34,352 nt of DNA from Vicinamibacteraceae bacterium. GTDB lineage: Bacteria; Planctomycetota; Phycisphaerae; Phycisphaerales; UBA5793. Positions 4,070 to 34,352 of the stretch are shown one piece after another. Every line of letters begins with the position of its first letter. The stretch's first letter is position 1. The notes beneath the pieces were generated by a model that made no database searches, was not told where the DNA came from, and saw only the letters and a list, made by a program, of their open reading frames with translations. Position numbers and translations under genes: made by a program. Where the stretch lies: the NCBI GenBank assembly GCA_011525805.1, contig WYBR01000041.1, positions 1 through 34,352 of the forward strand, written 5' to 3'.

Positions 4070-4072
4070 CAA

Positions 4073-4231
4073 CTACTTCTTCTTGTTGTCGTAGCGACCC
4101 GTGTCGCCGTTCCCCTTCTTGGGCATGACCTCGACTGACGACCCTCGGGGGTTGGCCTTGGCCTGTTCGACAGACTTCAGGCGGCCCGTCTCATTGTCCC
4201 GACCGATCTTGAATCCCTTGGACTTCGACAT
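4073..4231 (-). CDS. Small basic hypothetical protein, 52 residues
   Basis: The product begins MSKSKGFKIGRDNETGRLKS and ends in a Lys-rich tail. Small proteins with a similar FxIGRDxxTGR core are, as far as I recall, frequent beside restriction-modification and phage genes; no function is known. The start at 4231 is supported by GGAG eight bases upstream. It is transcribed away from hsdM, so the 110-bp gap (4232-4341) is a divergent control region containing the operator-like palindrome. Its 3' end nearly meets that of the HTH gene (3 bases apart), so the two converge. Confidence 0.65.
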   Translation of the reverse strand: MSKSKGFKIGRDNETGRLKSVEQAKANPRGSSVEVMPKKGNGDTGRYDNKKK

Positions 4232-4308
4232 GGCGTTTACTCCATTTTGACGCGGGCTGTCGGATCTACCCTGATCCGCTGGCTTTGACCCGCTGGTTAT
4301 GATACCCT

Positions 4309-4331
4309 GTCCACGTTCACTGAACATGGAC
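4309..4331 (+). promoter_or_regulatory. Operator-like palindrome upstream of hsdM, with nearby -10 box
   Basis: This 23-bp inverted repeat has arms GTCCA/TGGAC and GTTCA/TGAAC, with one mismatched pair and a single central base. A TATGAT hexamer at 4298-4303 would place the transcript start around 4310, inside the palindrome, ideal for repression. The right part (GTTCAC ... ACATGGAC) recurs before the gene at 14780. The XRE protein encoded at the end of this operon is the obvious candidate ligand (inference). Confidence 0.6.
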
Positions 4332-4341
4332 GGAGTACAAA

Positions 4342-7839: not shown

Positions 7840-8819
7840 GCAGATTCGACGATTTTCCGAAGCAGATAAACGTACCGATCCCCACGGATGACACCGGCAT
7901 GGTCGGGCGTGAGTGCCCCAATGCTGAATGCGAGGGGTACTTCAAACTCCAGCCTGGAACGGGCCTGACGGGCGAAGATCTCGACTGTGTATGTCCGTAT
8001 TGCGGCCATCGGGGCAAGCCGGATCAGTTCTGGACAAAGGAGCAGATCGAGTACGCGAAGTCATACGCGTTCCGAGCCATCGGGGACATCGTGACCCGCG
8101 AGTTGAAGAAGCTCGCGTTCAATCACCCGCCGCGCGGTGCGTTCGGTATTGGCATCAGCATGACACTGAAGGAAGGGCCACGCGCCCCCCTTCGGCACTA
8201 CCGAGAGAAGGCACTCGAAACCGAGGTCGTGTGCGACCAGTGCACCCTTCGGTACAGCGTGTTCGGTGTCTTTGGGTTCTGCCCAGATTGCGGATGTCAC
8301 AACTCCCGTCAGATCTTGGAGAAGAACCTGGACCTTGCGATGAAGGTGATTGAGTTCTCTCAAGCCGCGCCTACGCCCGAGATCACTGAGAATCTGGTTC
8401 AGAACGCGCTTGAAGACGTGGTTTCGTCGTTTGACGGATTTGGTCGCGAACTGCTGAGTGCCCACGCCGCGCGAGCAAATGATCCGAAGAAGGCGTCCAG
8501 CGTGTCGTTTCAAAGCTTGACTGGTGCGGACAAGTCGTTGCAGGCCTTGTTTGGGACGTCCCTTCAGACGCTGACGACGCCAGAAGAGTGGAAGCTCATG
8601 GTCCGCTGCTTCCACAAGCGTCATGTGATCGCCCACAAAGGCGGGGTAATCGACGAGAAGTACATCGAGCAATCAGGCGACGACACCGCAATCGAAAGGC
8701 GAAAGGTGCGTGTCTCAGCGGATGAGGTGCGGATGCTCGTGGCTGCCGTTCGGTCGCTAGGAGATGGGTTGTGGCGGTACTTCACGCCGGCGGCCCGGTC
8801 GGTGGAGGTGCCCAAGTGA
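7836..8819 (+). CDS. Zn-ribbon and HEPN-type putative nuclease/defence protein
   Basis: This 327-residue protein has two cysteine clusters (C27/C32 with C51/C53/C56, and C133/C136 with C149/C152) and a C-terminal helical domain carrying RHVIAH (R262-H267). The RX4-6H motif is the catalytic signature of HEPN RNases found in toxins and anti-phage proteins. The N-terminal ribbons may sense nucleic acid or contact a partner. It begins in an ATGA overlap with hsdS and ends in a GTGA overlap with the TIR gene, so it is produced with the restriction system. HEPN assignment rests on the motif and helical context, not on an alignment; a non-catalytic HEPN-like role is possible. Confidence 0.65.
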   Translation: MSRFDDFPKQINVPIPTDDTGMVGRECPNAECEGYFKLQPGTGLTGEDLDCVCPYCGHRGKPDQFWTKEQIEYAKSYAFRAIGDIVTRELKKLAFNHPPRGAFGIGISMTLKEGPRAPLRHYREKALETEVVCDQCTLRYSVFGVFGFCPDCGCHNSRQILEKNLDLAMKVIEFSQAAPTPEITENLVQNALEDVVSSFDGFGRELLSAHAARANDPKKASSVSFQSLTGADKSLQALFGTSLQTLTTPEEWKLMVRCFHKRHVIAHKGGVIDEKYIEQSGDDTAIERRKVRVSADEVRMLVAAVRSLGDGLWRYFTPAARSVEVPK

Positions 8820-9286
8820 ACGTGTTCATCTCCTACAGCGTGGCAGACGTTGACCTATTGCGCAGGGTGGCTCAGGTGATCGCGGCGGGTGGGGATAAGC
8901 CTCTGTGCTGGGACACCAGCAAGACGCCTGGCCACGAAGTCTGGCCCAGCATCTTCGGATGGATCGACGCGAGCGACCTGGTCATCGTCATCATCACAGA
9001 TCAAACCGTGGCGCGGGCAATGTCCGTCGGGCAGGAAGTTGGGCATGCACGAGCCAAGGGAAAGCCGATCGTGCCGCTTGTCGCCGCTGGGGTCAGGCCA
9101 GAGGACCTCGGGTGTCTGAACGGGGTGATCTATCAACCCATCAGTCGAGAGAACACAAGTGATGCGCTCGCCGCTGTTCAGCGGGTTCTCGACGGGATGA
9201 AGATGCAGAAGGCCGAGGCGCAGCGCCAGTTGCTAGTGGTCGGTGGGATCGTCGGCCTGCTGTGGCTGTTCGGCCAGAACGGGTAA
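8816..9286 (+). CDS. TIR-domain protein with C-terminal membrane helix
   Basis: The 156-residue product begins VNVFISYSVADVDLLRRVA, the strand-A/box-1 region of TIR domains. It continues with WIDASDLVIVIIT and SVGQEVGHARAKGKPIVPL, where E74 is at the position of the catalytic glutamate of NAD-consuming TIRs. A hydrophobic helix (about 139-152, LLVVGGIVGLLWLFG) ends the protein and could place it in the inner membrane. Bacterial TIR proteins commonly act as abortive-infection effectors by depleting NAD. The GTG at 8816 overlaps the preceding stop and follows a GGAGG. An upstream in-frame start at 8771 lies inside the previous gene and is less likely. Confidence 0.82.
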   Translation: MNVFISYSVADVDLLRRVAQVIAAGGDKPLCWDTSKTPGHEVWPSIFGWIDASDLVIVIITDQTVARAMSVGQEVGHARAKGKPIVPLVAAGVRPEDLGCLNGVIYQPISRENTSDALAAVQRVLDGMKMQKAEAQRQLLVVGGIVGLLWLFGQNG

Positions 9287-9317
9287 TCGAAGAAGTTCCG
9301 CGATTCAAGAGGTTTAT

Positions 9318-10496
9318 GTGATTCCCAAGACGTTGGACAAGATCGAGGCCGCTGACATCCAGTCCCTCGTCACCAATGGTGACGAGGAACGCCGGACGTT
9401 GGACTTCAAGCGCGACCTGCCGGGCAACACCGACAAGGACAAGAACGAACTCCGCGCAGATGTCACCTCCTTCGCCAACGCCGGCGGCGGCGACCTGATC
9501 TTCGGCGTGGATGAGGCGGGCGGCGTGGCTACGGCCGTGCCGGGTTTGCCCGGAGTCGATGCCGACGCGGAGATCCGCCGCATCGAGGCCGTCATTCAGA
9601 CCAGCATCGACCCGCGCGTGCCCGGGTTTGAGTCACGGGCTATCGCGATCCCGGGCAAGGGTCCGGTGATCGTCGTCCGTGTGCCCAAGAGCTGGCGCGG
9701 CCCGCATCTGGTCAAGATCAACGACACGTTTCGGATGTTCGGGCGCAACAGCAAGGGCAAGTACATCTTCGATGCCACGGAGATCCGTTCGGCGTTCGCG
9801 CTGTCGGAGCAGTTGCCGGAGCGCATCCGGCGCTGGCGGGATGATCGGTTGGCTCGAATTATCGGGGAAGAGGCTCCCCTGCCGCTCGCGGCCGGCGCAA
9901 GGCTAGTCGTTCATGTTGTTCCCCTGGCCTCGTTCGCCGCAGGGAGGGAAGTCTCCGCCGAGGCCATGAAGAAGGCAAGCCAGGCCTTTCAACCACTCTG
10001 CACGGGCGGCAGCGACTCCCGCATCAACATCGACGGGCTCCTGAAGTTCACCGGGGGCCGTGCGGGTGCGCCCGGCGCGACCGCGTACTGCCAGGTGTTC
10101 CGCTCCGGAATCGTTGAAGGCGTGACGACCGAGGTCGTTCAAACTCGTGAGCCGCGCCCGTACATCGCCAGCCAGTGGCTTGCCCAGGAGGTCGTCTCGA
10201 GCGTCAAGCAGTATCGGGCTGGTCTGATCGCGTGCGATGTCCTGCCGCCTTACCTCGTGCTGGCCACGTTGGCGGGAGCGAAGGGCGCGACGCTGGCAGT
10301 CAGCAATCGCTTCATGGTCTGGGAGCACTACCCGGTTGACCGTGACTTGGTGGTCCTCCCCGACGTGCTCATCGAGTCCAGGGACAGTGATCTGCTGACA
10401 GACCTCCGGTCGCTGTTCGACGGCGTCTGGAACGCCTGCGGCTGGGTGCGGTGTTTCGATTACAACGAACAGGGCAAGTGGGCACCTCCCGCCTGA
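9318..10496 (+). CDS. Schlafen AlbA_2-domain putative DNA/RNA-binding protein
   Basis: From the GTG at 9318 the protein has 392 residues. Residues 1-150 match the AlbA_2 (Schlafen AAA_4-like) domain: EERRTLDFKRDLP, then SFANAGGGDLIFGVDEAGG, then IVVRVPKSWRGPHLV and a glycine-rich loop FRMFGRNSKGKY. Such domains bind nucleic acids and are frequent in defence loci. The C-terminal 220 residues are not recognised. The start follows AGAGG and is 31 bases after the TIR stop; an earlier GTG at 9243 would overlap the TIR gene in another frame. The gene lies directly before hsdR, so it is part of the same operon. Confidence 0.8.
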   Translation: MIPKTLDKIEAADIQSLVTNGDEERRTLDFKRDLPGNTDKDKNELRADVTSFANAGGGDLIFGVDEAGGVATAVPGLPGVDADAEIRRIEAVIQTSIDPRVPGFESRAIAIPGKGPVIVVRVPKSWRGPHLVKINDTFRMFGRNSKGKYIFDATEIRSAFALSEQLPERIRRWRDDRLARIIGEEAPLPLAAGARLVVHVVPLASFAAGREVSAEAMKKASQAFQPLCTGGSDSRINIDGLLKFTGGRAGAPGATAYCQVFRSGIVEGVTTEVVQTREPRPYIASQWLAQEVVSSVKQYRAGLIACDVLPPYLVLATLAGAKGATLAVSNRFMVWEHYPVDRDLVVLPDVLIESRDSDLLTDLRSLFDGVWNACGWVRCFDYNEQGKWAPPA

Positions 10497-10520
10497 GCAC
10501 CAACGAAAGGACGTTTCGGC

Positions 10521-13500
10521 ATGACGTGGCACGGCTCTGAATCCCAGTTTGAGTGGACGACCATTGAGCGGCTCAAGTCGCTCGGGTATGTCTATGTCCA
10601 CGGGTCGGAGTTGGGCGCTGCTGCGAGGCCCGATGACTCAGAGGTCGTGCTCAAGGACCGGCTTCGGGTGTTCCTCATCGCCCGCTACGGGCGGACAGTC
10701 ACTCGACCCGATGGGCTGCCGGATGCGGCGATCGATGCAGCCGTCGCCAAGTTCGCACGGCCCGAGGGAGTGGACACGCTCCGCCGCAACGCGGCGCTGC
10801 ACGCCATGCTTCGCGGTGGCGTGGAGATTGCGGTCGAAGAACCGGCGGCAGACGGGAAGCCCGCGGGTAAACGCATCGCGCACGTCTATGCCGTGGACTG
10901 GGAACGACCCGAGCACAACGAGTTTCTGGTCGTGAACCAGCTGCCCGTCCACGGGCCAAGTGGGAACGATCGTCGCCCCGACGTCATCGTGTACGTGAAC
11001 GGGCTGCCGCTGGTCCTGTTCGAGCTCAAGAACCCGTACGACGACCAGCCCACGGTGGCGGATGCCATCAACCAGATCGGCCACTACCGCCACGAGATCC
11101 CGCAACTATTCGACCACAACGCGCTCTGCATCGCCTCCGACGGCGTGACCACGCTGCACGGCATGTGGACCGCCAGCGCGGAGTGGTACGCGCCGTGGAA
11201 GAGCATTGACGGCCTGACAGTCGAGCGCGGCACCACCGGGAGCATGAAGACGCTGGTCGAGGGGCTGCTGCCCAAGGACCGGCTCTTGGCGTACATCCGC
11301 GACTTCATCGTGTTCGAGACGATCGGAGCGGCTGGAGGCAAGATTGTTAAGAAGGGAGGAAAATACCACCAGTTCTTTGCGGTGCGGATCGGGGCGAGGA
11401 AGATCCTGGAATCGGTAAAGGCGGGGACGGCAGACAAACGGCTGGGCGTCATTTGGCACACCACCGGCTCGGGGAAGTCGCTGTCTATGTGCTTCCTGGT
11501 CGGGATGCTGCGGCGGGAGGCCGTGCTGAACAACCCGACCTTCGTGATTCAGGTCGATCGGACGGACCTGGACCAGCAACTGCACGACCAGTTCGTTTCG
11601 GCCCGCTCGCTGGTGGGCGACGTCAAGCACGCCAAGAGCGTCGAAGATCTTCGCGGCCTGCTCCAGACGCAGGGCGGTGAGGTGATCTTCACCACGATCG
11701 AGAAGTTCGCGCTGCGTGAGGGCGAGGCCGAGCATCCGGTGCTCTCGACGCGAGACAATGTGATCGTGATCGCCGATGAGGCGCACCGGAGCCAATACGG
11801 ATTCACCAAGGGCTTTGCACGCTGGCTCGGGGCGGCGCTGCCCAATTCGCGGCGGCTGGGGTTCACCGGCACGCCTGTCTCCTTCAGCGGGGCCGACACC
11901 GTCGAGGTCTTCGGTGACCTGGTCCACGTCTACGACATCCGCCAGAGCCAGGATGACAAGGCGACGGTGCCGATCTTCTACGAGCCACGGCAGATCAAGC
12001 TTCGTTTGAACAAGACGGACGTGGATGGGGCACTGGCGGAGATTGTCGAAGATGCGCCGATCGACGAGTTGGAGAGAAAGAAGGGCCAATGGGCTGCGCT
12101 GGCCAAGGCGGCGGGCGCGAAGGAGCGGATAGAACTGCTCGCGGCCGACCTGCTCGCACACTTCAAGGACCGGACGGCCACGCTCAAGGGCAAGGCGATG
12201 GTCGTCTGCATGATCCGCGAGAACTGCGTGAGACTGTACGATGCGCTGAAGGCGCTGCCGGGGTGCCCCGAGATCAAGGTGGTGATGACCGGCGACCTGG
12301 GCAAGGACCCCGAGGCGTGGAGCAAGGCCGGGCACCTGACGACCAAACAGCAGCGCGAAGCGATCAAGAAGCGGATGATCGACGCGGACGATCCGCTGTC
12401 AATGGTGATCGTCTGCGATATGTGGCTCACGGGCACGGACATCCCTTGCCTGCACACGCTGTATGTGGACAAGCCCATGAAGGGCCACACGATGATCCAG
12501 GCGATCTCGCGTGTGAACCGCGTGTTCAGCGACAAGCCGCACGGACTGATCGTGGACTACATCGGCATTGGCGATGAGCTGCGGGCAGCGACCGCGAAGT
12601 ACTCAGCGGGTGGAGAAGATCACGGGAAGCCCGCGGGCGGGCTGGATGAAGACGCCCGGCCGCTGTTCGTGGCGGCGCTGGCCGAGGTGCGGTCGTTCCT
12701 CCCCGAAGGCGTGAATTACGGCGACTGGCGGCGGCTCTCGCCGATCGCGCTGGAGGACCGCTACGCGGCGGTTTATGGGCATCTGACCAGCGACGATGAC
12801 CTGCGGGACCACTTCTTGGACGCCGAGCTGCGGCTGACGAGCGCATTCCTGCTCGTCAAACACCTGGATGACTGCCGCGCCAGCGCCGACGAGGTGATCT
12901 TCTGTCAGCGGGTGCGTAAGCAGCTCCTCAAGACGATCCGCGGGCGTGGACCTACCAGAGACATCGAGAAGGCGGTGCGGGACCTGGTGGATGACACCGT
13001 CGAGAGCGAGGGCGTCGTTGACATCTTCAAGGCCGCGGGGATCACGCGGGCCGACATCTCGATCCTCGACGACAACTTCCTTCAGACGTTTAAGGATCGG
13101 CCGCTGCCGGACCTTCGGCTCAAGTTGCTCGAGAAACTGCTCGCCGACGAGATCCACATGCGGGCGAAGAAGAACTTGGCCAAGGCGAAGACGTTCCGTG
13201 AACTACTGGAAGCGACGCTCCAGAAGTACCACAACCGGCTTATCGACGCGGCGGCCGTGATCCGCGCCATGATCGAGATCAAGAAGGACATGGAGGCATC
13301 GGATCAGCGGGCCGGGCAGTTGGGCTTGGCGGAGGATGAGCTTGCCTTCTATGACGCCGTCGCCATCAACTACGAGAACGTCTACGGCGTGGACTTCCTG
13401 AAGGGCCTGATCCACGACGTTGTGCAGAGCATCAAGCGAAACCTGAAGGTGGATTGGACCGAGCCGCACCGGGAGGACGTGAAGGCCGCAGTGAGAGCGG

Positions 13501-13616
13501 CGGTGCGGCGTGTTCTGACGAAGCAGGGCGTGAAGGCTGAGGACTTTGATCGGCTGATGCCCGTGCTGATGGCACAGGCGGAGGCGTTGTACGCGGAGTG
13601 GCCGATCGCGGCCTGA
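10521..13616 (+). CDS. hsdR: Type I restriction endonuclease subunit HsdR
   Basis: The 1031-residue R subunit cleaves unmodified DNA after ATP-driven translocation. The N-terminal nuclease has the PD-(D/E)xK residues D154 in RRPDVIVYV and E168/K170 in FELK. The helicase core has Walker A TTGSGKS (314-320), the DEAH box DEAHRSQYG (419-422) and LGFTGTP, and the second RecA domain includes TGTDIPCLHTLYVDKPMKGH and QAISRVNR. The C-terminal helical region contacts HsdM. Length is normal and all catalytic residues are present, so it looks active. The ATG follows AAGGA and lies 24 bases after the preceding gene. Confidence 0.97.
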   Translation: MTWHGSESQFEWTTIERLKSLGYVYVHGSELGAAARPDDSEVVLKDRLRVFLIARYGRTVTRPDGLPDAAIDAAVAKFARPEGVDTLRRNAALHAMLRGGVEIAVEEPAADGKPAGKRIAHVYAVDWERPEHNEFLVVNQLPVHGPSGNDRRPDVIVYVNGLPLVLFELKNPYDDQPTVADAINQIGHYRHEIPQLFDHNALCIASDGVTTLHGMWTASAEWYAPWKSIDGLTVERGTTGSMKTLVEGLLPKDRLLAYIRDFIVFETIGAAGGKIVKKGGKYHQFFAVRIGARKILESVKAGTADKRLGVIWHTTGSGKSLSMCFLVGMLRREAVLNNPTFVIQVDRTDLDQQLHDQFVSARSLVGDVKHAKSVEDLRGLLQTQGGEVIFTTIEKFALREGEAEHPVLSTRDNVIVIADEAHRSQYGFTKGFARWLGAALPNSRRLGFTGTPVSFSGADTVEVFGDLVHVYDIRQSQDDKATVPIFYEPRQIKLRLNKTDVDGALAEIVEDAPIDELERKKGQWAALAKAAGAKERIELLAADLLAHFKDRTATLKGKAMVVCMIRENCVRLYDALKALPGCPEIKVVMTGDLGKDPEAWSKAGHLTTKQQREAIKKRMIDADDPLSMVIVCDMWLTGTDIPCLHTLYVDKPMKGHTMIQAISRVNRVFSDKPHGLIVDYIGIGDELRAATAKYSAGGEDHGKPAGGLDEDARPLFVAALAEVRSFLPEGVNYGDWRRLSPIALEDRYAAVYGHLTSDDDLRDHFLDAELRLTSAFLLVKHLDDCRASADEVIFCQRVRKQLLKTIRGRGPTRDIEKAVRDLVDDTVESEGVVDIFKAAGITRADISILDDNFLQTFKDRPLPDLRLKLLEKLLADEIHMRAKKNLAKAKTFRELLEATLQKYHNRLIDAAAVIRAMIEIKKDMEASDQRAGQLGLAEDELAFYDAVAINYENVYGVDFLKGLIHDVVQSIKRNLKVDWTEPHREDVKAAVRAAVRRVLTKQGVKAEDFDRLMPVLMAQAEALYAEWPIAA

Positions 13617-24446: not shown

Positions 24447-25047
24447 CAGGTCAGAAACGAGGGTCGGACGTGGTCGGACCCTTCTTTCACATTCTTCACG
24501 CGCGATCTCTCGGGCGGGCGGGAAGGGAGCAGAGAAGGAGGGGTTGAAGAAAGTGAAAGAAGGTATCTCTCTCATTTCTATACCTTCCCCCACCCCTCCC
24601 CCGGCCCCCCGCCTCCCCACCGCAGCGCCCATGCAGGTCGTGTGCCAGGCAGCGCCTAGCGGGAGCCTTACAGCCGGAAGCCTTACGGGAAGGGAGGCGG
24701 ATGGCGTTAGGTACTTCCCGGGCCCGATCGCGTGGCTTGGCCCGCGGGAACAGCCGCGCTTGGCGACAGAGTTTGTTTCGCCCGTCCGAGCGCGGGGCGG
24801 CCCCGTGGCGGGGTTGGTACGCCTCGCCGCCAATGACGCGACGTGGGCCAACGTGGGCGGACCCGTGGCCAACGGGCGCGGCCCGTAGCGCGGGGGAATC
24901 GGGGCGCTAAGCGCTCCCGGACGGGCCCGTCGCCCGAGCGATCCAGCCAACCAGCGATCCACCGATCCCCGGACCTGCCGCATGTGCGGCGGGCCACCAC
25001 GACGTTTTGCGCTGGCGTTCCCCGCCGCGCTTCCGACGGAGATCGCT
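24447..25047. other. 601-bp non-coding region between primase and methyltransferase genes
   Basis: No convincing gene is seen here. From about 24510 to 24563 the top strand is very purine-rich, then from 24567 to about 24625 pyrimidine-rich with C-runs. At the turn GAAGGTAT (24559-24566) and ATACCTTC (24580-24587) form a perfect 8-bp stem with a 13-base loop, which could end transcription of the primase operon. Further on come two GCCTTAC repeats 15 bases apart (about 24665 and 24680) and a tight GCCGCA/TGCGGC palindrome at 24977-24990. A replication origin or control region of the phage is possible. Confidence 0.6.
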
Positions 25048-26418
25048 ATGAACATCGAGACGCTGCCCATCGACGCGGTCAAGGAATACGACCGCAATCC
25101 CCGCACCATCAACGACGCCGCCATCGACGCGGTGGCCAAGAGCATCGAGGCGTTCGGCTTCAAGGTGCCGATCCTGATCGACGCCGATGGCGTGATCATC
25201 GCCGGGCACACGCGACTCCGCGCGGCGCGGAAGCTCGGGCTGAAGGAGGTGCCGACGATCCGCGCCACCGATCTGACGCCCGAGCAGGTCAAGGCACTGC
25301 GCATCGCCGACAACAAGGTCGCCACGCTGACTTCGTGGGACATGGAGCTCCTGCCGCTGGAGCTGGCCGACCTCAAGGGCGTGGACTTCGATCTCGCGCT
25401 GCTCGGCTTCAGCGCCGAGGATCTCAGCGCCATCATGGCTCCCGCGGGCAGCGAGGGTTTGACCGATCCCGACGACGTGCCGGGCGCACCGGACGCAGCG
25501 ACGACGGTGCCCGGCGACATCTGGGTGCTCGGCAACCACCGGCTGATGTGCGGCGACTCGTCCAAGCCCGAGGACCTGGACCGTCTGCTTGATGGCCAGC
25601 CGATTCATCTCGTGAACACGGACCCGCCGTACAACGTGAAGGTCGAGCCACGCTCGAACAACGCGATCGTCGCCGGCCTGAGCTCGTTCGCGCTGCCGGG
25701 CAAGGCAGACCAGCATGACCAGCAGAGCGCCGACCTCAACCGCTACCCCGAGAAGAGTCGTGCCACGCACAAGAAGCTCCGTGCCAAGGACCGGCCGCTC
25801 GCCAACGACTTCGTGTCGGACGACGAGTTCGACCGGTTGCTCGCGGCGTGGTTCGGGAATATCACCCGCGTGCTGATCCCCGGCGGCACGTTCTACATCT
25901 GGGGCGGCTACGCCAACTGCGGCAACTACCCGCCCGTGCTCAAGCGCTGCGAGCTCTATTTCGCCCAGGCGATCATCTGGATCAAGGAGCACCCGGTCCT
26001 GACCCGCAAGGACTTCATGGGCAATCACGAGTGGTGCTTCTACGGCTGGAAGGAAGGCGCGGCACACCGCTTCTTCGGCCCCGCGAATGTGCCTGATACT
26101 TGGTCGATCAAGAAGGTCAACCCGCAGAGCATGGTTCATCTGACCGAGAAGCCGGTCGAGCTCGCGCGGCGGGCCATCGAGTTCTCATCGCGACCCGGCG
26201 AGAACGTGCTCGACCTCTTCGGCGGCAGCGGCTCCACGCTCATCGGCGCGGAGATGACCGGGCGGCACGCATTCCTCATGGAGCTCGACGCGCTCTACTG
26301 CGATGTCATCGTGCAGCGCTGGGAGAAGTTCACGGGCCGCAAGGCGGAGCGACTGCCTGCGAAGGGTGCGGCCGAAGAGAAAGCCGCGACGAGCGTCGCG
26401 GCTGGGAGCAAGGCGTGA
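25048..26418 (+). CDS. ParB-like N-terminal domain fused to DNA adenine/cytosine N-methyltransferase
   Basis: The 456-residue protein starts with a ParB/Srx-like domain (1-110: DRNPRTINDAAIDAVAKSIE, FKVPILIDADGVIIAGHTRL). A class-beta amino-methyltransferase follows, with catalytic DPPY (192-195) and SAM-binding FGGSGST (391-397). Such ParB-MTase fusions are common in phages, where they methylate phage DNA, usually without a cognate nuclease, as protection against host restriction. The ATG at 25048 has GGAG seven bases upstream; the 24982 start is inside a palindrome and less likely. Target specificity cannot be read from the sequence. Confidence 0.93.
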   Translation: MNIETLPIDAVKEYDRNPRTINDAAIDAVAKSIEAFGFKVPILIDADGVIIAGHTRLRAARKLGLKEVPTIRATDLTPEQVKALRIADNKVATLTSWDMELLPLELADLKGVDFDLALLGFSAEDLSAIMAPAGSEGLTDPDDVPGAPDAATTVPGDIWVLGNHRLMCGDSSKPEDLDRLLDGQPIHLVNTDPPYNVKVEPRSNNAIVAGLSSFALPGKADQHDQQSADLNRYPEKSRATHKKLRAKDRPLANDFVSDDEFDRLLAAWFGNITRVLIPGGTFYIWGGYANCGNYPPVLKRCELYFAQAIIWIKEHPVLTRKDFMGNHEWCFYGWKEGAAHRFFGPANVPDTWSIKKVNPQSMVHLTEKPVELARRAIEFSSRPGENVLDLFGGSGSTLIGAEMTGRHAFLMELDALYCDVIVQRWEKFTGRKAERLPAKGAAEEKAATSVAAGSKA

Positions 26419-26426
26419 TGAACGCC

Positions 26427-26696
26427 TCACTCGTCGTCGAGCGTGGGCAGAGCCCCGTCGGTCGCTTCGTCCCAATCAAGGGCGTAGCGCTCGGCGATGT
26501 CCTCGAGGTCGTGCTCGGTCAGGTAGTCGGCCGTCTTGCGCTCTTGGCAGGCCGCGACGGCTCGGGCGAGGTCCGTCCACTCCTCGATCGTGACCATCCG
26601 GTCCTGCCGCGCTCCGAGCAGGTAGAGCGCGGCCTGCAGCACGGCATCGAGTTGGGCTTGGGTCGGCGCGGGCTGCGGGGCTGGAGTGGCGCTCAT
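26427..26696 (-). CDS. Hypothetical protein, 89 residues
   Basis: The product begins MSATPAPQPAPTQAQLDAVL and continues with a helical acidic region (QERKTADYLTEHDLEDIAER). No family is recognised. It ends nine bases from the convergent methyltransferase stop and starts four bases after the next gene's stop, so it is the last gene of a five-gene leftward unit. Composition is protein-like (few Arg/Ser runs), unlike the forward frame over the same DNA. Confidence 0.65.
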   Translation of the reverse strand: MSATPAPQPAPTQAQLDAVLQAALYLLGARQDRMVTIEEWTDLARAVAACQERKTADYLTEHDLEDIAERYALDWDEATDGALPTLDDE

Positions 26697-26699
26697 GGC

Positions 26700-27236
26700 T
26701 CAGGCTCCCTTCCCCGCGACGAAGACGCCGCGTTCGTGCTTCTTGAAGCGGGCGGCGGTGCCCTTGGCGGCGATCTCCCGGACGATGGCGGCGTAGAGCG
26801 TGGCCTCGGGGGTCTTGCCGCCGGGGCTCGTCCAGAGTTTCTTGGCCTCCATCGCCGCGATCATCTCCTTGGCCCGCATCGGAACCTCGCTTGCGGCGAG
26901 CACCTGCGCAGCCGCGTCGAGGGCGCTGACGCGCATGGGCTTCGGCTCCTTTGCGGGCTTCGGGGCCCTCGGCGTCTTGGGGGCCTTCTCGCCCTTGGCC
27001 CTCTTGCCCTTGATAGCCGCGCCAAGGCTCGCGTTGTTGGCGACCTCCTTGTCGCTGGGGACCTCGTGGTCCTGCTTCCCGCCCGCCCCCCCAACCAACC
27101 GGTCCTTGATCTCAGCGAGCGCCGCTTTGCGGAGGCGGTCCGTCTTGGCGGCTCCCTCGGCGCGGGCGGCGCTCTTGGACATCTTCGGGGTGCGGGGGGT
27201 GCGGGGCTTGGCGGGCTTCTTCGTCTTCGTACTCAT
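26700..27236 (-). CDS. HARE-HTH (winged-helix) domain protein
   Basis: The 178-residue protein has a Lys/Pro/Ala-rich basic N-terminal half ([20 protein letters not shown]) and a C-terminal HARE-HTH domain. The domain runs [20 protein letters not shown], then [12 protein letters not shown], then [17 protein letters not shown] and [18 protein letters not shown] occurs in bacterial RNA polymerase delta subunit, restriction enzymes and eukaryotic HB1/ASXL proteins, and is thought to read DNA or chromatin state. Here a histone-like tail plus HARE-HTH suggests a nucleoid or transcription modulator. GGAG six bases upstream favours the start at 27236 over an ATG two codons earlier. Confidence 0.82.
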
Positions 27237-27295
27237 GGTCATCTCCGAACTGGGGGTTGGAACTCCCGTCGCACATTGCGGCGGGGAAGCGTGGC

Positions 27296-27315
27296 CGTCG
27301 CGGTTCCCCGCGACG
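27296..27315 (-). terminator. Strong hairpin between leftward genes
   Basis: CGTCGCGG and CCGCGACG pair perfectly around a four-base loop. The hairpin lies between the stop of the 27330 gene and the start of the HARE-HTH gene and has no T-run. It is better seen as a processing or attenuation element than as a classic terminator. Confidence 0.4.
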
Positions 27316-27329
27316 CCGCGTGGGGCGGG

Positions 27330-27614
27330 TCAGCAGCCCGCGACGCGCTCCATCTCGTTGAGCACGTCATGGACCATCGATTTGGTGGCGGCGGCTTGGC
27401 CTCGGCGGTCGGTGCCGTAGACCACCTTGGCGACCTCTGTCGCCTTCGCGTAGCGACTCTCCCGGTTCTCGTCGCGGGCGATGTGCGCGATGCAGATGTC
27501 CTGCCTGCCCGATCGCCGGGTGTGCTGTTCGATGGTCACCTCCGCGCCGCGCTCAGTGCGGCGGATGCTGATGTCTTGGTCGATGCCCTCGATCACGATC
27601 GTCTTGATGGTCAT
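27330..27614 (-). CDS. Hypothetical protein, 94 residues
   Basis: The product starts MTIKTIVIEGIDQDISIRRT, with a beta-rich N-terminal half (AEVTIEQHTRR, QDICIAHIARD) and a helical end. No family is recognised. The leader CGCAAGGAGCAACGCC before the ATG is almost the same as that of the neighbouring 27645 gene, so both have strong ribosome sites. It belongs to the leftward unit. Confidence 0.65.
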   Translation of the reverse strand: MTIKTIVIEGIDQDISIRRTERGAEVTIEQHTRRSGRQDICIAHIARDENRESRYAKATEVAKVVYGTDRRGQAAATKSMVHDVLNEMERVAGC

Positions 27615-27644
27615 GGCGTTGCTCCTTGCGGTTGGTGGTTCTGG

Positions 27645-27908
27645 TCACTCGGCGTCGTTCAGAAAGGCCTCGACGTGCTCGGGGTCCATGTTGCTGAGGA
27701 ACCCGACCAGATCGATCAGGTCGCTGCGGACCTTCCCGAGGCTTCCCGCGAAGCCCCAGTTGCGTGGGTCGGCCCTGGCCCCCTCGTTGTGCTTGTCGAG
27801 TTCCATCTGCAGCACGTCCATCAGGCGGGCGATGTCGTTGCGGCGTGCGGCGTACGTCTCTGCGGCGGTCGGTTCGGGCTTGGTGGTCTTGGGGGTGCGC
27901 TTCGTCAT
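27645..27908 (-). CDS. Hypothetical protein, 87 residues
   Basis: After a Lys/Thr-rich start (MTKRTPKTTKPEPTAAETYA) the protein is helical and polar (RRNDIARLMDVLQMELDKHN) and ends in a hydrophobic helix IDLVGFLSNMDPEHVEAFL. No family is recognised. An AAGGAG ribosome site within the repeated CGCAAGGAGCA leader supports the start at 27908. It lies in the leftward unit downstream of the hairpin at 27948. Confidence 0.65.
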   Translation of the reverse strand: MTKRTPKTTKPEPTAAETYAARRNDIARLMDVLQMELDKHNEGARADPRNWGFAGSLGKVRSDLIDLVGFLSNMDPEHVEAFLNDAE

Positions 27909-27947
27909 GGTCGTGCTCCTTGCGGTTCGGGGTCTCTGGTAAACAGC

Positions 27948-27970
27948 GAAGCCCGCATTTCGCGGGCTTC
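27948..27970 (-). terminator. Terminator-like hairpin at the end of the 27969-28319 gene
   Basis: GAAGCCCGC and GCGGGCTTC form a perfect 9-bp stem with a five-base loop. On the leftward strand it immediately follows the stop codon, as intrinsic terminators do. The following tract (GCTGTTTACC) is weak in T, so partial read-through into the next genes is likely. Confidence 0.55.
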
Positions 27971-28319
27971 AGGTCGTCGGGTGGTTGTCGTTCTTGCGGT
28001 CCCAACTCGTCGTGTCTTTCGGCTGGCCAACCGCCCGGAGGTAGTCGACCAACTCGTCGGCGGTCCAGGTGTCGCCGTCGATGGCGTCGTGCTCGTTGGG
28101 GGTGTCGGTATCGCGGTCGATCTCGAACAGGCGGAAGCCGCCCAGCGCTCCGGGACGCGGTCCCCAGTGGCCGTCGAGGTGGCGGCCGCGTCCGGCGGGG
28201 ACCGTCGCGATGTTCCAGGTGCGGCCGTCGGGCGTGTGGATCTCAATCGCAGGGATGTGGAACCCGCTCTTGGCGAGGGTCTTGGCGAGGTCGAGCGTGG
28301 TCTTCGTGGTCGCGTTCAT
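27969..28319 (-). CDS. Hypothetical protein, 116 residues
   Basis: The protein starts MNATTKTTLDLAKTLAKSGF and contains a beta-rich WNIATVPAGRGRHLDGHWGP segment and an acidic DTWTADELVDYLRAVGQPKD end. It has no recognised family. The start at 28319 has GGAGA nine bases upstream; a longer frame to 28403 adds a His/Pro-rich leader that looks non-coding. It is the first gene of the leftward unit and is divergent from the small-terminase-like gene. Confidence 0.65.
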   Translation of the reverse strand: MNATTKTTLDLAKTLAKSGFHIPAIEIHTPDGRTWNIATVPAGRGRHLDGHWGPRPGALGGFRLFEIDRDTDTPNEHDAIDGDTWTADELVDYLRAVGQPKDTTSWDRKNDNHPTT

Positions 28320-28489
28320 GTTCGTGGTCTCCGTCGCGTGCGGGGGGTGCGTTGTTCCCGCTCGCGTTGGACACACATTGGCCGGCTGATGGGGAACAGG
28401 CAAGGCGTTAAACGCTCATTTCTCGATGATTCTGAGACATGTGGGCAACTGCGTCCGCGATGTGGGCAACCCTGCGCGGGAGGTCCGCG
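28320..28489. promoter_or_regulatory. Divergent control region with direct repeats before the packaging genes
   Basis: Two exact copies of ATGTGGGCAAC begin at 28438 and 28460, 22 bases apart (about two helical turns), and GTCCGCGATG follows both. GCGTTAAACGC, a perfect short palindrome, lies near 28405. The position directly before the terminase genes suits a packaging (cos/pac) or operator site; promoters for both directions should also be here but no clear -35/-10 pair stands out. Confidence 0.45.
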
Positions 28490-28738
28490 ATGACTCCCGA
28501 ACACGCGCCTAGTTCCCAGCCTGCGGGGAGCGGACAGGGAATGTCCCGGCTCAACCCGGCGGCGATGCCCGTGGCGGACGCCGCCCGCGTGCTCACCCGG
28601 CTTGGCGGCAAGCCCGTGACCGAAGCGATGCTCCGCGCCGACATCGATGCGGGCGCGCCGACCAACGCCGACGGCAGCGTCAACCTCGTGCACTACGCCG
28701 CGTGGCTCGTGAAGGAGATGTCCGCAGGTGGCGATTGA
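28490..28738 (+). CDS. Small terminase-like / DNA-binding protein, 82 residues
   Basis: The product begins MTPEHAPSSQPAGSGQGMSR. Residues 27-77 (VADAARVLTRLGGKPVTEAM ... GSVNLVHYAAWLVKEM) form a small helical DNA-binding-like domain. The same pattern, ending FRYVAWLV, occurs at the N-terminus of the large terminase encoded next. Position and size suit a small terminase subunit. The ATG at 28490 has GGAGG seven bases upstream. It overlaps the next gene by 11 bases. Confidence 0.65.
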   Translation: MTPEHAPSSQPAGSGQGMSRLNPAAMPVADAARVLTRLGGKPVTEAMLRADIDAGAPTNADGSVNLVHYAAWLVKEMSAGGD

Positions 28739-31013
28739 CTCGCGCAAACTCAAGCCCGGCGAACTCGCGCGGCTGCTCAACAGCACGACGCTGGGCGAGG
28801 TGATCAGCGAGCGGCAGCTCCACCGGCATCGCACGCGCGCCGGGTTTCGCGTCGCGGCCGACGGCGACGCGGGCAAGGTTGATCTGTTCCGATACGTGGC
28901 ATGGCTCGTGGCGACGCGGCATGAAGCGATCGCCGAGGCCGCGAGTGCTCCCGAGGGTTTGACGGGTTACGACGCGATGAAGGAGCGTGCCCGGCTCCGC
29001 AACGCGATGCTTTCGCTGTCGGGACGGGACATTGGTGACCTGCCTCCGGTCGCGGACGCAGCGAGGAGGCTGAAGGCGGCCCGCGACTTCCGGTTCTTCT
29101 GCGAGGCGTATTTCCCGCAGACGTTTCACCTCAAGTGGTCGAACGACCATCTCAAGGTCATCGCCAAGATTGAGCAGGCGGTACTCGATGGCGGGCTGTT
29201 TGCGATGGCGATGCCGCGCGGCTCGGGCAAGACCTCGCTCTGCGAGATCGCGTGTCTGTGGGCGTTGGTGTACGGGCACCGGGAGTTCGTGGCGCTTGTC
29301 GGCTCCGACGAAGAGCACGCGGCCGGGATGCTCGATTCGATCAAGGCGGAGCTGGAGAACAGCGAGATCCTCGGCGGCGACTTCCCAGAGGTCTGCCACC
29401 CGATCCGCTCGCTCGAAGGCATCCACCAGCGGGCTTCAGGGCAGCTCTACCAAGGCAAGCAGACCCACATCGGGTGGACCGCCCGAGAGATCGTGATGCC
29501 CACGGTCCCGGGCTCCGCGGCATCCGGCGCGATCATCCGTGTCGCGGGGATCACCGGCCGCATCCGTGGCATGAAGCACAAGCGTGTCGACGGTGTGAGC
29601 GTCCGCCCGTCGCTCGTACTGATCGACGACCCGCAGACCGACGAGAGTGCCCGTTCGCCGTCCCAGTGCGCCAACCGCGAGCGCATTCTCGCCGGTGCAA
29701 TCCTCGGCATGGCCGGACCTGGACGGAAGATCGCAGGCTTGATGACGCTGACCGTGGTCCGCCCTGACGATCTGGCGGACCGCATTCTCGACCGCGACAA
29801 GCACCCGCAATGGCAGGGCGAGCGGACCAAGATGGTCTATTCGTTCCCCAAGAACGAGAAGCTCTGGGCCGAGTACGCCCGCGTGCGGGCCGAGGGGCTT
29901 CGCGCCGATCGCGGGATAGCCGATGCCACGGCGTTCTACGGCAAGCACCGGACGGCGATGGACGAGGGAGCGGTCATCGCCTGGCCGGAGCGGTTCAACC
30001 ACGACGAGTTGTCGGCGGTGCAGCACGCCATGAACCTGCGGCTGCAGAACGAGTCCGCGTTCTTCGCGGAGTATCAGAACGAACCGCTGCCCGAGGTCGA
30101 GGTCGCGGACGACCTGCTCAGCGCCGACCAGATCGCGGCGAAAGTGAACGGGCACGCCCGCGGGCTTGTCCCGCTCGGGTGCTCGCACCTGACGATGTTC
30201 GTGGACGTTCAGGGCAAGGCGCTGTTCTACCTTGTCGCCGCATGGGAGGACGACTTTACCGGGCACATCATCGAATACGGCACCGAGCCGGATCAGAAGC
30301 TGGCGTACTTCACGCTTCGGGATGTGCGCCGAACGCTCGGAGCGGCGTCTCCCCGCGCCGGCGTAGAGGGTGCGATCTACGGCGGTCTGGAGCGGCTCAT
30401 CGAAGCGACGATCGCACGCGAGTGGCGGCGCGATGATGGTGCGATGGTGCGGATTGACCGATGCCTGATCGACGCCAACTGGGGTTCATCCACGGATGTG
30501 GTCTACCAGTTCTGTCGCCAGAGCCCGCACGCCAGCGTGCTTACGCCCAGCCACGGCAGGTATGTCGGCGCGAGCAGCCTCCCCTTCAGCGACTACAAGC
30601 GCAAACGCGGCGAGCGGGTCGGGCTGAACTGGCGTGTGCCGATCGTGACCGGGAAGCGAGCGGTGCGGCACGTCCTGTTCGACACGAACTACTGGAAGTC
30701 CTTTGTCCATGCGAGGCTGGCGGTGCCGATGGGCGATCCTGGAGGCCTCTCGTTGTTCGGCCAGAAGCCCGAGCCACACCGTCTGTTGTCGGAGCACCTC
30801 ACCAGCGAGTACCGCGTGCGGACGGAGGGCCGCGGCCGCACCGTGGACGAGTGGAAGCTTCGGGTCGAGGGGCTGGACAACCATTGGCTGGACGGCCTGG
30901 TGGGCTGCGCCGTCGGCGCGTCCATGCAGGGCGCGGTGCTGTTTGGCACTGATGCCCGAGTGCCAAACCGGCCACGCATTCGACTGTCGGCCATCCGAGG
31001 AGACCGTCGCTGA
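28728..31013 (+). CDS. Phage terminase large subunit with extra N-terminal domain
   Basis: The 761-residue motor protein packages phage DNA into proheads. Residues about 5-65 are the extra domain similar to the preceding small protein. The ATPase has Walker A PRGSGKTS (163-170) and Walker B LVLIDD (D300/D301). The C-terminal RNase-H-like nuclease shows MFVDVQGKALFYLVAAWE and RCLIDANWGSSTDVV with acidic residues at expected strand ends. It resembles the gpA-type large terminases found beside lambda-type portals. The GTG at 28728 overlaps the previous gene. Confidence 0.9.
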   Translation: MAIDSRKLKPGELARLLNSTTLGEVISERQLHRHRTRAGFRVAADGDAGKVDLFRYVAWLVATRHEAIAEAASAPEGLTGYDAMKERARLRNAMLSLSGRDIGDLPPVADAARRLKAARDFRFFCEAYFPQTFHLKWSNDHLKVIAKIEQAVLDGGLFAMAMPRGSGKTSLCEIACLWALVYGHREFVALVGSDEEHAAGMLDSIKAELENSEILGGDFPEVCHPIRSLEGIHQRASGQLYQGKQTHIGWTAREIVMPTVPGSAASGAIIRVAGITGRIRGMKHKRVDGVSVRPSLVLIDDPQTDESARSPSQCANRERILAGAILGMAGPGRKIAGLMTLTVVRPDDLADRILDRDKHPQWQGERTKMVYSFPKNEKLWAEYARVRAEGLRADRGIADATAFYGKHRTAMDEGAVIAWPERFNHDELSAVQHAMNLRLQNESAFFAEYQNEPLPEVEVADDLLSADQIAAKVNGHARGLVPLGCSHLTMFVDVQGKALFYLVAAWEDDFTGHIIEYGTEPDQKLAYFTLRDVRRTLGAASPRAGVEGAIYGGLERLIEATIAREWRRDDGAMVRIDRCLIDANWGSSTDVVYQFCRQSPHASVLTPSHGRYVGASSLPFSDYKRKRGERVGLNWRVPIVTGKRAVRHVLFDTNYWKSFVHARLAVPMGDPGGLSLFGQKPEPHRLLSEHLTSEYRVRTEGRGRTVDEWKLRVEGLDNHWLDGLVGCAVGASMQGAVLFGTDARVPNRPRIRLSAIRGDRR

Positions 31014-31195
31014 TGCCACGCGTGCGGCGAGTCGTCCCGACGGAGAAGGACCAGCCCCTCGGGCTGGTGTGTCGTGTCTGTGGATGTCAGCACTTCCGGG
31101 TGATCTACCTCAAGCGGATTGCCGGTGCGATTGTGCGCCGGCGGGAGTGCCGGCACTGCGGGCGGCGTGTCTCGACCAAGGAAGCTCAGACGTAG
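31013..31195 (+). CDS. Small zinc-ribbon protein (NrdR/Ogr-like), 60 residues
   Basis: The product carries C20/C23 and C46/C49 with the motif VRRRECRHCGRRVSTKE. This is very like the zinc ribbon of NrdR and of phage Ogr/Delta late-gene activators. The rest of NrdR is absent. It starts in a one-base overlap with the terminase stop. It could be a small transcription regulator or a packaging accessory; sequence alone cannot decide. Confidence 0.72.
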   Translation: MPRVRRVVPTEKDQPLGLVCRVCGCQHFRVIYLKRIAGAIVRRRECRHCGRRVSTKEAQT

Positions 31196-31529: not shown

Positions 31530-33098
31530 ATGCTGAAAGCCCTCGCCAACATCATGAGCCGGATCGCTCCCCATCGCGGGACGTCCACCGTCTCTTCCTC
31601 CCCGGCGGCGTCGCATGCTCCGCACGGAAGTGGGGCACGCGGCGGCCGTCGTTTGGTTGTCGCCAAGTTCGACTCGGCCAAGACCACGCCGGAGAACCGC
31701 AAGCACTGGGCCAACGCCGACGGTCTGTCGCCCAACGCTGCCATCAACCCCGAGGTCCGGCGCGTCCTCCGCAACCGCGCCCGCTACGAGGTCGCCAACA
31801 ACTCCTACGCCAAGGGCATCGTCCTCACGCTCGCCAATGACACCATCGGCACCGGTCCCCGGCTGCAGATGCTCACTGATGACGCCGAGGCCAACGCCCG
31901 CATCGAGGATGCGTTCGAACAGTGGTCGCGGGCCGTTGACCTTCCCGGCAAGCTCCGCACCATGCGGCTGGCCCGGGCAGAGAGTGGCGAGGCGTTCGCG
32001 CTCCTGATCAACAACCCCGGCATCGCGTCGGCGGGCTCGCCCGTGTCGCTTGATCTCAAGCTCATCGAGGCCGACCAGGTCTGCACGCCCCTCCTCCGTC
32101 GCGGGCGCAACGACGAGATCGACGGCATCGCTTTGGATCAGTGGGGCAACCCCGCCGCCTACCGCGTACTCAAGCGCCACCCCGGTGACAGCGGCGTGTT
32201 CCGCACGCCGATCGACGACCTCACGGCCTACGACACGTTCCAGGCCGCTTCGGTCGTGCACTACTTCCGCCCGGACCGGCCTGGCCAACTCCGCGGCATC
32301 CCTGACATCACGCCGGCGCTCCCGCTGTTCGCGCAGCTCCGCCGGTACACATTGGCGACGATCGCGGCCGCCGAGACCGCCGCCAATTTCGCCGCCGTCA
32401 TCTACACCGACAGCCCCGCCAACGGCGAGGCCGATCCGCTTGAGCCGATGGACGAGGTCGAACTCGAGCAGCGTCTCGCCACCGTGCTTCCGGGCGGCTG
32501 GAAGCTCGGCCAGGTTCATGCCGAGCAGCCGACGACGACGTTTGGCGAGTTCAAGCGCGAGATCCTCAACGAGATCGCCCGCTGCCTAAACATGCCGTTC
32601 AACGTCGCGGCTGGCAACTCCTCCGGGTACAACTACGCCAGCGGTCGCCTCGACCACCAGGTGTACTACAAGAGCATCCGCGTCGAGCAGCACCACCTGC
32701 AGCTCGCCGTGCTCGATCGCATCCTGAAGGCGTGGCTCAACGAGGCCGTGCTTGTCGAGGGTTTGCTCCCGCAGTCCCTGCGGACCATCGCCGCAACACT
32801 CCCGGAGCACGCGTGGTTCTGGGATGGCGTCGAGCACGTGGATCCCGCCAAAGAGGCCAACGCCCAGGCCACCCGACTTGCCAACCACACGACCACGCTC
32901 GCCGCGGAGTTCGCCCGGCAAGGCCGCGACTGGGAGCAGGAGCTCCGCCAGCGTGCCAAAGAGCTCACGCTCATGAACGAACTCGGCCTAGCACCGGCAA
33001 CGGCGCAGACCGCTGCGCCCGCCGCGACTGCGCCCGCAGAGGACCCCGATCCCGCAGACCAAGTAGATGAGGAGACCGCCAGTGCCAGTCACCGCTGA
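31530..33098 (+). CDS. Phage portal protein, lambda family
   Basis: The 522-residue protein shows the lambda gpB-type pattern: RVLRNRARYEVANNSYAKGI, VLTLANDTIGTGPRLQM, LMRLARAESGEAF-type helix (here TMRLARAESGEAFALLI), ASVVHYFRPDRPGQLRGIPD and FKREILNEIARCLNMPFNVA followed by SSGYNYASGRLD. It forms the dodecameric DNA channel at the prohead vertex. The C-terminal 40 residues are Ala/Pro/Asp-rich. The protease-capsid gene begins inside its 3' end (17-base overlap). Confidence 0.92.
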   Translation: MLKALANIMSRIAPHRGTSTVSSSPAASHAPHGSGARGGRRLVVAKFDSAKTTPENRKHWANADGLSPNAAINPEVRRVLRNRARYEVANNSYAKGIVLTLANDTIGTGPRLQMLTDDAEANARIEDAFEQWSRAVDLPGKLRTMRLARAESGEAFALLINNPGIASAGSPVSLDLKLIEADQVCTPLLRRGRNDEIDGIALDQWGNPAAYRVLKRHPGDSGVFRTPIDDLTAYDTFQAASVVHYFRPDRPGQLRGIPDITPALPLFAQLRRYTLATIAAAETAANFAAVIYTDSPANGEADPLEPMDEVELEQRLATVLPGGWKLGQVHAEQPTTTFGEFKREILNEIARCLNMPFNVAAGNSSGYNYASGRLDHQVYYKSIRVEQHHLQLAVLDRILKAWLNEAVLVEGLLPQSLRTIAATLPEHAWFWDGVEHVDPAKEANAQATRLANHTTTLAAEFARQGRDWEQELRQRAKELTLMNELGLAPATAQTAAPAATAPAEDPDPADQVDEETASASHR

Positions 33099-34352
33099 CC
33101 CCAAGAAGGCCATTCCCGCTCTCACGCTCACCGCAACCGCCGACATCACCGTCGTTGCTGCGGCTGATGGGCAGGCTGCGCCTCTCCCTCGCTTCAAGAT
33201 GGTCGCGTACACCGGCGGCGCGATGCGTGTCGCGGGCTGGCGTCACCCGGTCGTGATCGACCTCGCGGGTCTGGCGGTTCCCTCGCAGGCACGCCCCATC
33301 CGCTTCGGGCACGACCCGCTGTCGGGCGTCGGCCACACCGATTCGATCCGCGTTGAGGCCGGGCAGCTCGTGGCGACGGGCGTGATCTCGCGTGACACCT
33401 CCGCCGCCAAGGAGGTCGTCGCATCCTCGCGGAACGGCTTTCCGTGGCAGGCCTCCGTCGGCGCGAGCGTCGAGGAGTTCGAGTTCATCAAGGACAACCA
33501 GAAGGCGACGGTCAACGGCCAGGAACTCACCGGCCCGGTCAACGTCGTTCGCAAGGCCACGCTCGGCGAGATCAGCTTCGTGGATCTCGGCGCAGACGGC
33601 CGCACCAGCGCGAGCATCGCCGCGCGTCAGAACAAGGAGCCCAGCGTCATGGCCGACGATCCCACGACTTCCAATCCCACCCCGTCCGCAATCATCGCCA
33701 CCGAGCAGACGCCCGAGCAGGTCCGCGCTGCAGCCCTTGCTGAAACGGCCCGCATCGTCGCCGTTCGCAAGGTCTGCGCCGGCAAGCACAGCGAGATCGA
33801 AGCCCAGGCCATCCGCGACAACTGGGATGCCACGCGGACGGAGCTCGAGGTTCTGCGTGCCAGCCGCCCCAAGGCCCCGGCCATCCACGCGCCCGACACC
33901 AGCGTCACCAGCGAGGTCCTCGAAGCCGCGTGCTTCCAGAGCGCCAAGCTCGAAGGCATCGAGAAGGTCTGCTCCACGCAGGCAATCGAGATCGCCGCCA
34001 AGCGGTTCCAGGGCGGGCTGGGCCTGCAGGAGCTTCTGTTCGAAGCCGCGATCGCCAACGGCTACACGGGCCGCACGTTCCGTGACAGCCGCCGCGTCCT
34101 CGAGGCCGCGTTCGGACGCGGCATCGAGGCGGGCATGACCACCATCGATGTGGGCGGCATCCTCTCCAACGTCGCCAACAAGTTCCTGCTCGAGGGCTTC
34201 TTCAGCGTCGAGCGCGTGTGGCGGAGCATCTGCGCCGTCCGCAACGTCAGCGACTTCAAGACCGTTACCAGCTACCGCCTGGTCGGCAAGGACCAGTACG
34301 AGCAGGTCGCCCCCGGCGGCGAGCTCAAGCAGGGCACGCTCGGCGAGGAGAC
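33082..34352 (+). CDS. Prohead protease fused to Mu-gpT-like major capsid protein, 3' end outside window
   Basis: From the GTG at 33082 the frame is open to the window end (at least 423 residues). Residues 30-185 are an S78-type prohead serine protease: MVAYTGGAMRVAGWRHPVVI, RFGHDPLSGVGHTD with H77, and GFPWQASVGASVEEF with S125. After a linker of about 100 residues comes a capsid part resembling Mu-like gpT (NKFLLEGFFSVERVWRSI, SDFKTVTSYRLVGKDQYEQV). An in-frame ATG at 33649 preceded by AAGGAG nine bases upstream could give a capsid-only product. The first residue is chosen from the overlap with the portal gene; no closer ATG precedes the protease core. Confidence 0.85.
   Translation, partial: MPVTADPKKAIPALTLTATADITVVAAADGQAAPLPRFKMVAYTGGAMRVAGWRHPVVIDLAGLAVPSQARPIRFGHDPLSGVGHTDSIRVEAGQLVATGVISRDTSAAKEVVASSRNGFPWQASVGASVEEFEFIKDNQKATVNGQELTGPVNVVRKATLGEISFVDLGADGRTSASIAARQNKEPSVMADDPTTSNPTPSAIIATEQTPEQVRAAALAETARIVAVRKVCAGKHSEIEAQAIRDNWDATRTELEVLRASRPKAPAIHAPDTSVTSEVLEAACFQSAKLEGIEKVCSTQAIEIAAKRFQGGLGLQELLFEAAIANGYTGRTFRDSRRVLEAAFGRGIEAGMTTIDVGGILSNVANKFLLEGFFSVERVWRSICAVRNVSDFKTVTSYRLVGKDQYEQVAPGGELKQGTLGEE

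Follow-up and report, generated by a model that had tools for sequence, protein, structure and literature searches.

Lambda C/Nu3 and Mu I/Z are nested genes in which one reading frame encodes a protease joined to an assembly domain, and an inner start yields the assembly domain alone. Heads of the HK97 type use an S78-type protease and a capsid protein with an N-terminal helical region, the delta domain; the two are encoded by separate genes, and the protease cutting step is established for these heads. In many tailed-phage genomes one 'protease and capsid fusion' protein is annotated, as though each head contained hundreds of protease domains.

Two curated families describe such fusions. The fusion reported here shares its architecture with phrog_4523 and with NF045541 (scaf_prot_MCP2, 'prohead protease/major capsid protein fusion protein'), whose family entry does not mention an inner start. 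NF045540 (scaf_prot_MCP1; Pseudomonas F10 and MD8) likewise fuses protease, scaffold and capsid, but its protease is ClpP-like and has another fold than S78. The protease, scaffold and capsid of MD8 are all encoded by one gene (PMC8508860, section 2.5). That section makes no mention of an inner start, and the terms 'internal' and 'start codon' occur 0 times in the main text of the article. The capsid described in PMC4936722 is not a fusion. No description of an inner start in protease-capsid fusions was found in the literature searched, a body that most subscription papers fall outside. The nested-start principle is known from protease-scaffold genes; no account that extends it to the capsid protein was found in the literature searched.

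The window, the whole 34,352-nucleotide stretch of DNA that was analysed, ends inside a gene of this kind (Table 1). The frame opens at GTG 33082 and runs to the end of contig C16 at 34352, leaving 423 codons visible. The initial annotation read an S78-type protease joined to a capsid, with an in-frame ATG at 33649 (residue 190) and AAGGAG at 33634-33639, nine bases upstream. These coordinates are exact, and sequence comparison backs the proposed domain order and candidate inner start. The suggested likeness to lambda C/Nu3 also stands as far as sequences can tell, since a conserved in-frame inner start with a putative ribosome binding site is found across relatives, as in genes of the C/Nu3 type. 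The locus differs from lambda C/Nu3 and Mu I/Z, where the capsid is a separate gene, in that the nested product here would comprise the capsid together with the scaffold region. It shares with HK97-type heads the S78-type protease and the helical region in front of the capsid, but one nested gene takes the place of two separate ones.

Table 1. Features of the window, in window coordinates.
Feature	Position	Strand	Evidence or remark
Fusion gene for prohead protease, scaffold and major capsid	33082..34352	+	Outer start GTG 33082; cut off by contig end
S78-like protease domain, residues 1 to about 179	33082..33618	+	PF04586 16.9 bits; phrog_3244 2.2e-17
Hypervariable disordered linker, residues 181-210	33622..33711	+	Column conservation; pLDDT <50 (L118 model)
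AAGGAG, Shine-Dalgarno-like, nine bases before ATG	33634..33639	+	SD energy -7.7; kept as nucleotides in relatives
Candidate inner start ATG, in frame, residue 190	33649..33651	+	Start codon in 93 of 107 near relatives (ATG 85, GTG 8)
Predicted nested product: short acidic linker, helical delta-like scaffold, start of capsid domain	33649..34352	+	Contig end cuts product; Phage_capsid_4 match from 33649 on
Portal protein gene, lambda family	31530..33098	+	PF05136 9.9e-61; overlaps outer start
60-aa zinc-ribbon frame between terminase and portal	31013-31195		NrdR-like N-terminal domain 28.5 bits vs 27.2; SD energy -8.9
Terminase large subunit gene	28728..31013	+	PF20454 3.1e-18; phrog_38
HsdM	4342-6090		
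HsdS	6166-7839		
Frame without match	7836-8819		
Schlafen AlbA_2 protein	9243-10496		
HsdR	10521-13616		

The N-terminal half of the window protein matches phrog_3244 and phrog_4523 ('major head and protease protein') clearly. TIGR01543 is matched weakly. PF04586 scores 14.6-16.9 bits in the window protein, under the 21-bit Pfam cut-off, and 20.4 in the relative L161, also below it; Microcystis yong2 (48.4) and RcKvothe (25.5) are above. H77, H85 and S125 are invariant in an alignment of 27 sequences and are candidates for the catalytic histidine and serine. Phage_capsid_4 (PF25209) reaches 26.5 bits in the truncated window protein against a cut-off of 27. L118, a complete homologue of 647 aa that is 98.6% identical to the window protein across the shared part, scores 153.9 bits. 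The Mu gpT family PF10124 is the weaker match in L118 (22.2 bits against a cut-off of 20.1). The NF045541 profile spans residues 82-423 of the window protein at 108.6 bits, short of the curated cut-off of 525, and covers positions 67-633 of 634 in L118 (E 5.1e-79, 266.5 bits, below 525); named relatives exceed the cut-off (e.g. RcKvothe 749.1, S1 621). Protease and capsid lie in a single open frame in the window and in the complete homologues alike, which are mostly about 650-745 aa from stop to stop. The protease-capsid fusion is therefore real and of a known kind (NF045541, phrog_4523), because L118 matches Phage_capsid_4 and nearly the whole of NF045541. By sequence score the window fusion is a distant branch of NF045541, since L118 reaches 266.5 bits against the cut-off of 525.

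An AlphaFold model of L118 (27 rows) has a mean pLDDT of 56.6 and a pTM of 0.30 and was used for rough borders only. This low-confidence model has a beta-rich part up to residue 179, disorder at 181-210, and helices at 211-343 up to the capsid. The inner ATG is placed by the model between the protease and the scaffold-like region because the beta-rich part ends at about 179 and the helices begin at 211. The relative L165, compared with the sequences of solved structures, gave no useful match.

The reading we consider highly probable on comparative grounds is a nested gene, in which the inner start supplies the scaffold and capsid subunits and the outer start supplies a protease fusion that is packaged with them. 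Initiation at GTG 33082 would give the full chain of S78-type protease, linker, helical scaffold and capsid domain, and initiation at ATG 33649 would give a protease-free chain of scaffold and capsid. The assembly region common to both chains would let the fusion join the short chains in the prohead and carry its protease inside, and after assembly the protease would cut away scaffold and linker. The sequence basis for this proposal consists of the fusion, the candidate inner start and its Shine-Dalgarno sequence (SD), an open RNA context, conservation at the nucleotide level and recurrence in other fusion families. Synthesis of both chains, an excess of the short one (the many capsid-only chains from few fusion chains proposed in the initial annotation) and the cutting step are inferred; the outer SD is not weaker than the inner, and relative output is unreadable from SD strength because the energies are -9.4 at GTG 33082 and -7.7 at ATG 33649. 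SD energies refer to the usual anti-SD sequence; the assembly is without a 16S gene. Of the window's 18 likely gene starts, with start codons as given by the frame finder, 9 have an SD energy of -6 or lower, and SD use in the window is therefore common and not universal.

The roughly equal strength of the two SDs in the window would also suit an inner start that is used mainly for a purpose other than stoichiometry, for instance to time capsid synthesis relative to the fusion or to make a regulator of the protease. This is unlikely, given that the nested product includes the whole capsid in complete homologues, and capsid protein is needed in hundreds of copies.

Relatives were collected from the window's own genus, IMG/VR and GTDB genomes (162 loci), with 30 more found through NF045541 in 294 genomes of the phylum. 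Ten loci that duplicated places already in the set and two that were too short (L035 and L158) were left out, and 173 frames were left after removal of repeats and identical frames. A phylum search with NF045540 was not used for counts, as ClpP matches occur in nearly every genome. SD energies of -6 or lower precede 69.5% of the 177 in-frame ATGs in the linkers of these frames, which are related to one another; the share is 4.9% for the 451 ATGs of the protease portion and 9.6% for the 1294 of the capsid portion. One row per 70% identity cluster gave 43 representatives from 167 rows (L086 was omitted), and 28 of the 43 have an ATG with an SD in the linker. Shuffling the linker codons gave a mean of 5.9 and a maximum of 13 in 300 draws, and drawing codons from the whole gene gave a mean of 5.0 and a maximum of 11 in 300. 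When any start codon was allowed, 34 linkers with start and SD were observed against a shuffled mean of 11.6 and maximum of 20.

The column of residue 190 holds ATG in 85 and GTG in 8 of the 107 near relatives outside the glycine-linker set described below, and the other linker columns, 182-211, are each at most 60% conserved. Valine in this column is encoded by GTG in 8 of 8 cases, compared with 36% of all valine codons in those genes; the rows concerned are related. Each of the six fusion genes that the window's genome contains carries the SD and inner ATG, five of them with the spelling CAGGAG. These six copies are distributed over contigs C16, C18, C44, C74, C83 and C138 of one 4.5 Mb assembly (G000), the other five being about 70% identical to that of the window. 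The host or bin contains several related prophages, because six fusion-gene copies occur in one assembly.

The initial annotation counted loss of AAGGAG in a conserved protein as evidence against the inner start. The exact letters are not conserved. The SD function is: in 51 of 58 representatives chosen at 88% identity, an in-frame ATG or GTG is preceded at a distance of 5-9 bases by AAGGAG, CAGGAG, GAGGAG, CCAGGAGAA, GCCGGAGAC or another spelling. A tree of these 58, built with the linker excluded and also omitting L164-L167, L169, L191 and L193, has 41 rows with ATG and SD, 10 with GTG and SD and 7 with neither. The start state changes at least five times on it; it is a quick tree with some long branches. 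In one clade the outcome is the refuting one, as its protein is kept and its start lost. This sister clade of 22 rows (79-82% identity) has a glycine-rich linker without ATG or SD (e.g. L137:4500-4600, L132 and L146). Its neighbours L073 and L133 keep the ATG and have no SD. For the column counts and the search for a replacement start, L092, which falls outside the clade on the tree, was added to the 22 to make a glycine set of 23. No common in-frame start with an SD was found in the linker as a replacement in the glycine-linker clade. An SD and ATG at column 1330 was rejected for this role, since it lies deep in the capsid, is common to 77 rows and is a by-product of conserved residues. The inner start can be lost, because the 22 rows have neither the start nor a replacement. 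All 22 have an outer ATG with a AAGAGGAC-like SD, and the window's clade has an outer GTG. Compensation at the outer start, with GTG where the inner start is present and ATG where it is absent, was considered and dropped as a near-clade trend that is no rule over the 58 representatives: the outer codon is ATG in 31 of the 41 whose inner codon is ATG, in 9 of the 10 where it is GTG and in 6 of the 7 that have no inner start. The glycine-linker clade is a natural contrast and predicts heads made of fusion chains alone, or another route.

The loss in one clade without evident harm would be in keeping with a relic, an inner start left over from a once separate capsid gene that fused behind a protease gene and is now unused, and such a fusion would leave an SD and ATG at the join. 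A relic would be expected to decay along with the linker. The SD and start instead persist, respelled and in a changed register, while the letters and lengths of the linker turn over (down to 34-45% identity), which makes this explanation very unlikely.

The way the SD is written bears on the protein sequence of the linker. The GG of the SD falls in all three codon registers, in 23, 10 and 5 of the 38 representatives with a start. The peptides at the SD are KE, QE, GD, GE, EE, EV, PE, GG and others, and the spacing is mostly 5-9. Sister rows spell the SD as GAAGGAGAACCCACGATG (EGEPTM), GAGGAGCAAGCAGCCATG (EEQAAM) and CAGGAGAACATCATG (QENIM). Nucleotides are thus kept and not a peptide, because the SD is written by different peptides in all three registers, and the variable spelling among sister rows argues against a cleavage motif. 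A conserved peptide KE(P/N)..M that serves in cleavage or folding, such as a site for self-release of the protease, would be well placed in a linker that is predicted to be disordered between protease and scaffold, where cutting would be useful. It is nevertheless extremely unlikely, as KE is exchanged for QE, EE, GE, GD and GG while GGAG-like bases are kept in another register, and among start-bearing rows the aligned methionine is exchanged only for GTG-coded valine.

Predicted folding of the mRNA at the inner start is weaker than in the flanks by 3.9 kcal/mol (n = 28, p 6e-4) and weaker than at other in-frame ATGs by 4.6 (n = 28, p 5e-5). Open RNA around the start is usual for true starts. 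Ribosome pausing at SD-like bases, which would give the protease time to fold before capsid synthesis and fits a site at a domain join, involves no initiation and is just as unlikely as the peptide motif, because it does not require a start codon, yet the start codon is the best-kept position of the linker, at initiation spacing and in open RNA.

A second feature at the inner methionine is a small domain. The motif M-xFExWLxxxGFD directly follows the inner Met in nine distant fusions. A motif search of 294 genomes of the planctomycete phylum gave 14 strong matches, all inside fusion frames, and the first residue of the motif is the ATG-coded inner Met in 14 of 14, with SD energies of -4.3 to -10.0. 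Five of the 14 loci (L265, L266, L267, L270 and L273) were absent from the search model. The loci with the motif in the form M-xFExWLxxxGFD..L are L162, L168, L170, L175, L177, L179, L183, L188, L192, L265-L267, L270 and L273. M-xFExWL was not found in named phages. Separately, L249:1348-2490 and L250:1362-2513 encode related capsids without protease and without scaffold helices, and no protease was recognised just upstream of either. They were dropped as a guide to the N-terminus of the nested product because the scaffold helices are missing.

The rest of the window carries other phage and cargo genes. The fusion gene, from its outer GTG on, overlaps the portal gene by 17 bases. A 797-aa frame at 26100-28493, which lies between the terminase and a ParB-methyltransferase fusion (24982-26418), matches nothing in Pfam at E values up to 1 and nothing in PHROGs up to 0.001. 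Within 2088-13616 a type I restriction system comes after a serine recombinase (2088-3677), accompanied by the Schlafen AlbA_2 protein and the frame without match of Table 1. This system may be prophage cargo, because it is located between the recombinase and phage replication genes.

Fusion genes of named phages were compared as a further set. Hand-picking from the listed rows of 163 records gave 25 regions, and exclusion of Blf4, which is not a fusion, left 24 genes. The initial annotation pointed to homologous fusions as the place to look for the same internal ribosome site, and an in-frame ATG with an SD energy of -6 or lower is present within residues 171-240 in 17 of the 24. Among the 19 that are neither enterobacterial nor F10-like, 12 have such a site, compared with a mean of 2.2 and a maximum of 8 in 500 shuffles. 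All 7 of the ClpP-capsid fusions, the NF045540 kind, have both an SD and an ATG in frame at the join (shuffles: mean 1.3, maximum 5 in 1000); Psul1 and Nostoc belong to both the set of 19 and the set of 7. The strongest site within residues 171-240 of F10 and LLS is inside the ClpP domain, and their join site passes the threshold too. Seven of the 24 miss the threshold of -6, three of them narrowly (RcKvothe, 1/44 and 1.049, at -5.6 to -5.7); W8red, Mano, FoX5 and phiHAP-1 are clearer misses within the tested stretch. Bordetella phage PBb002 and Stenotrophomonas phage S1 have the join ATG as the sole in-frame ATG in residues 140-330. Three Pfam make-ups occur: S78 with Phage_capsid_4, ClpP with Phage_capsid_4, and S78 with Phage_capsid (VP882, Persinger and ECOO78). 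In 14 of 23 annotated genes there is overlap between the outer start and the last bases of the preceding gene (portal, or unnamed in LPPA33), an arrangement that would couple the output of the fusion to that of a low-copy protein.

Sequence comparison thus gives good support to a nested start that behaves like a selected signal, kept at the nucleotide level, in fusions of several kinds. The odds look evenly balanced for a general rule, by which protease-capsid fusion arose more than once, each kind keeps or regains an in-frame start at the join, and a fusion is tolerated only if the capsid can also be made by itself, the glycine-linker clade being one of the rare escapes. If the nested start is conserved, it would explain how such phages make mostly plain capsid with a minority of protease-bearing chains, and the N-terminus now annotated for the major virion protein would need correction in hundreds of records.
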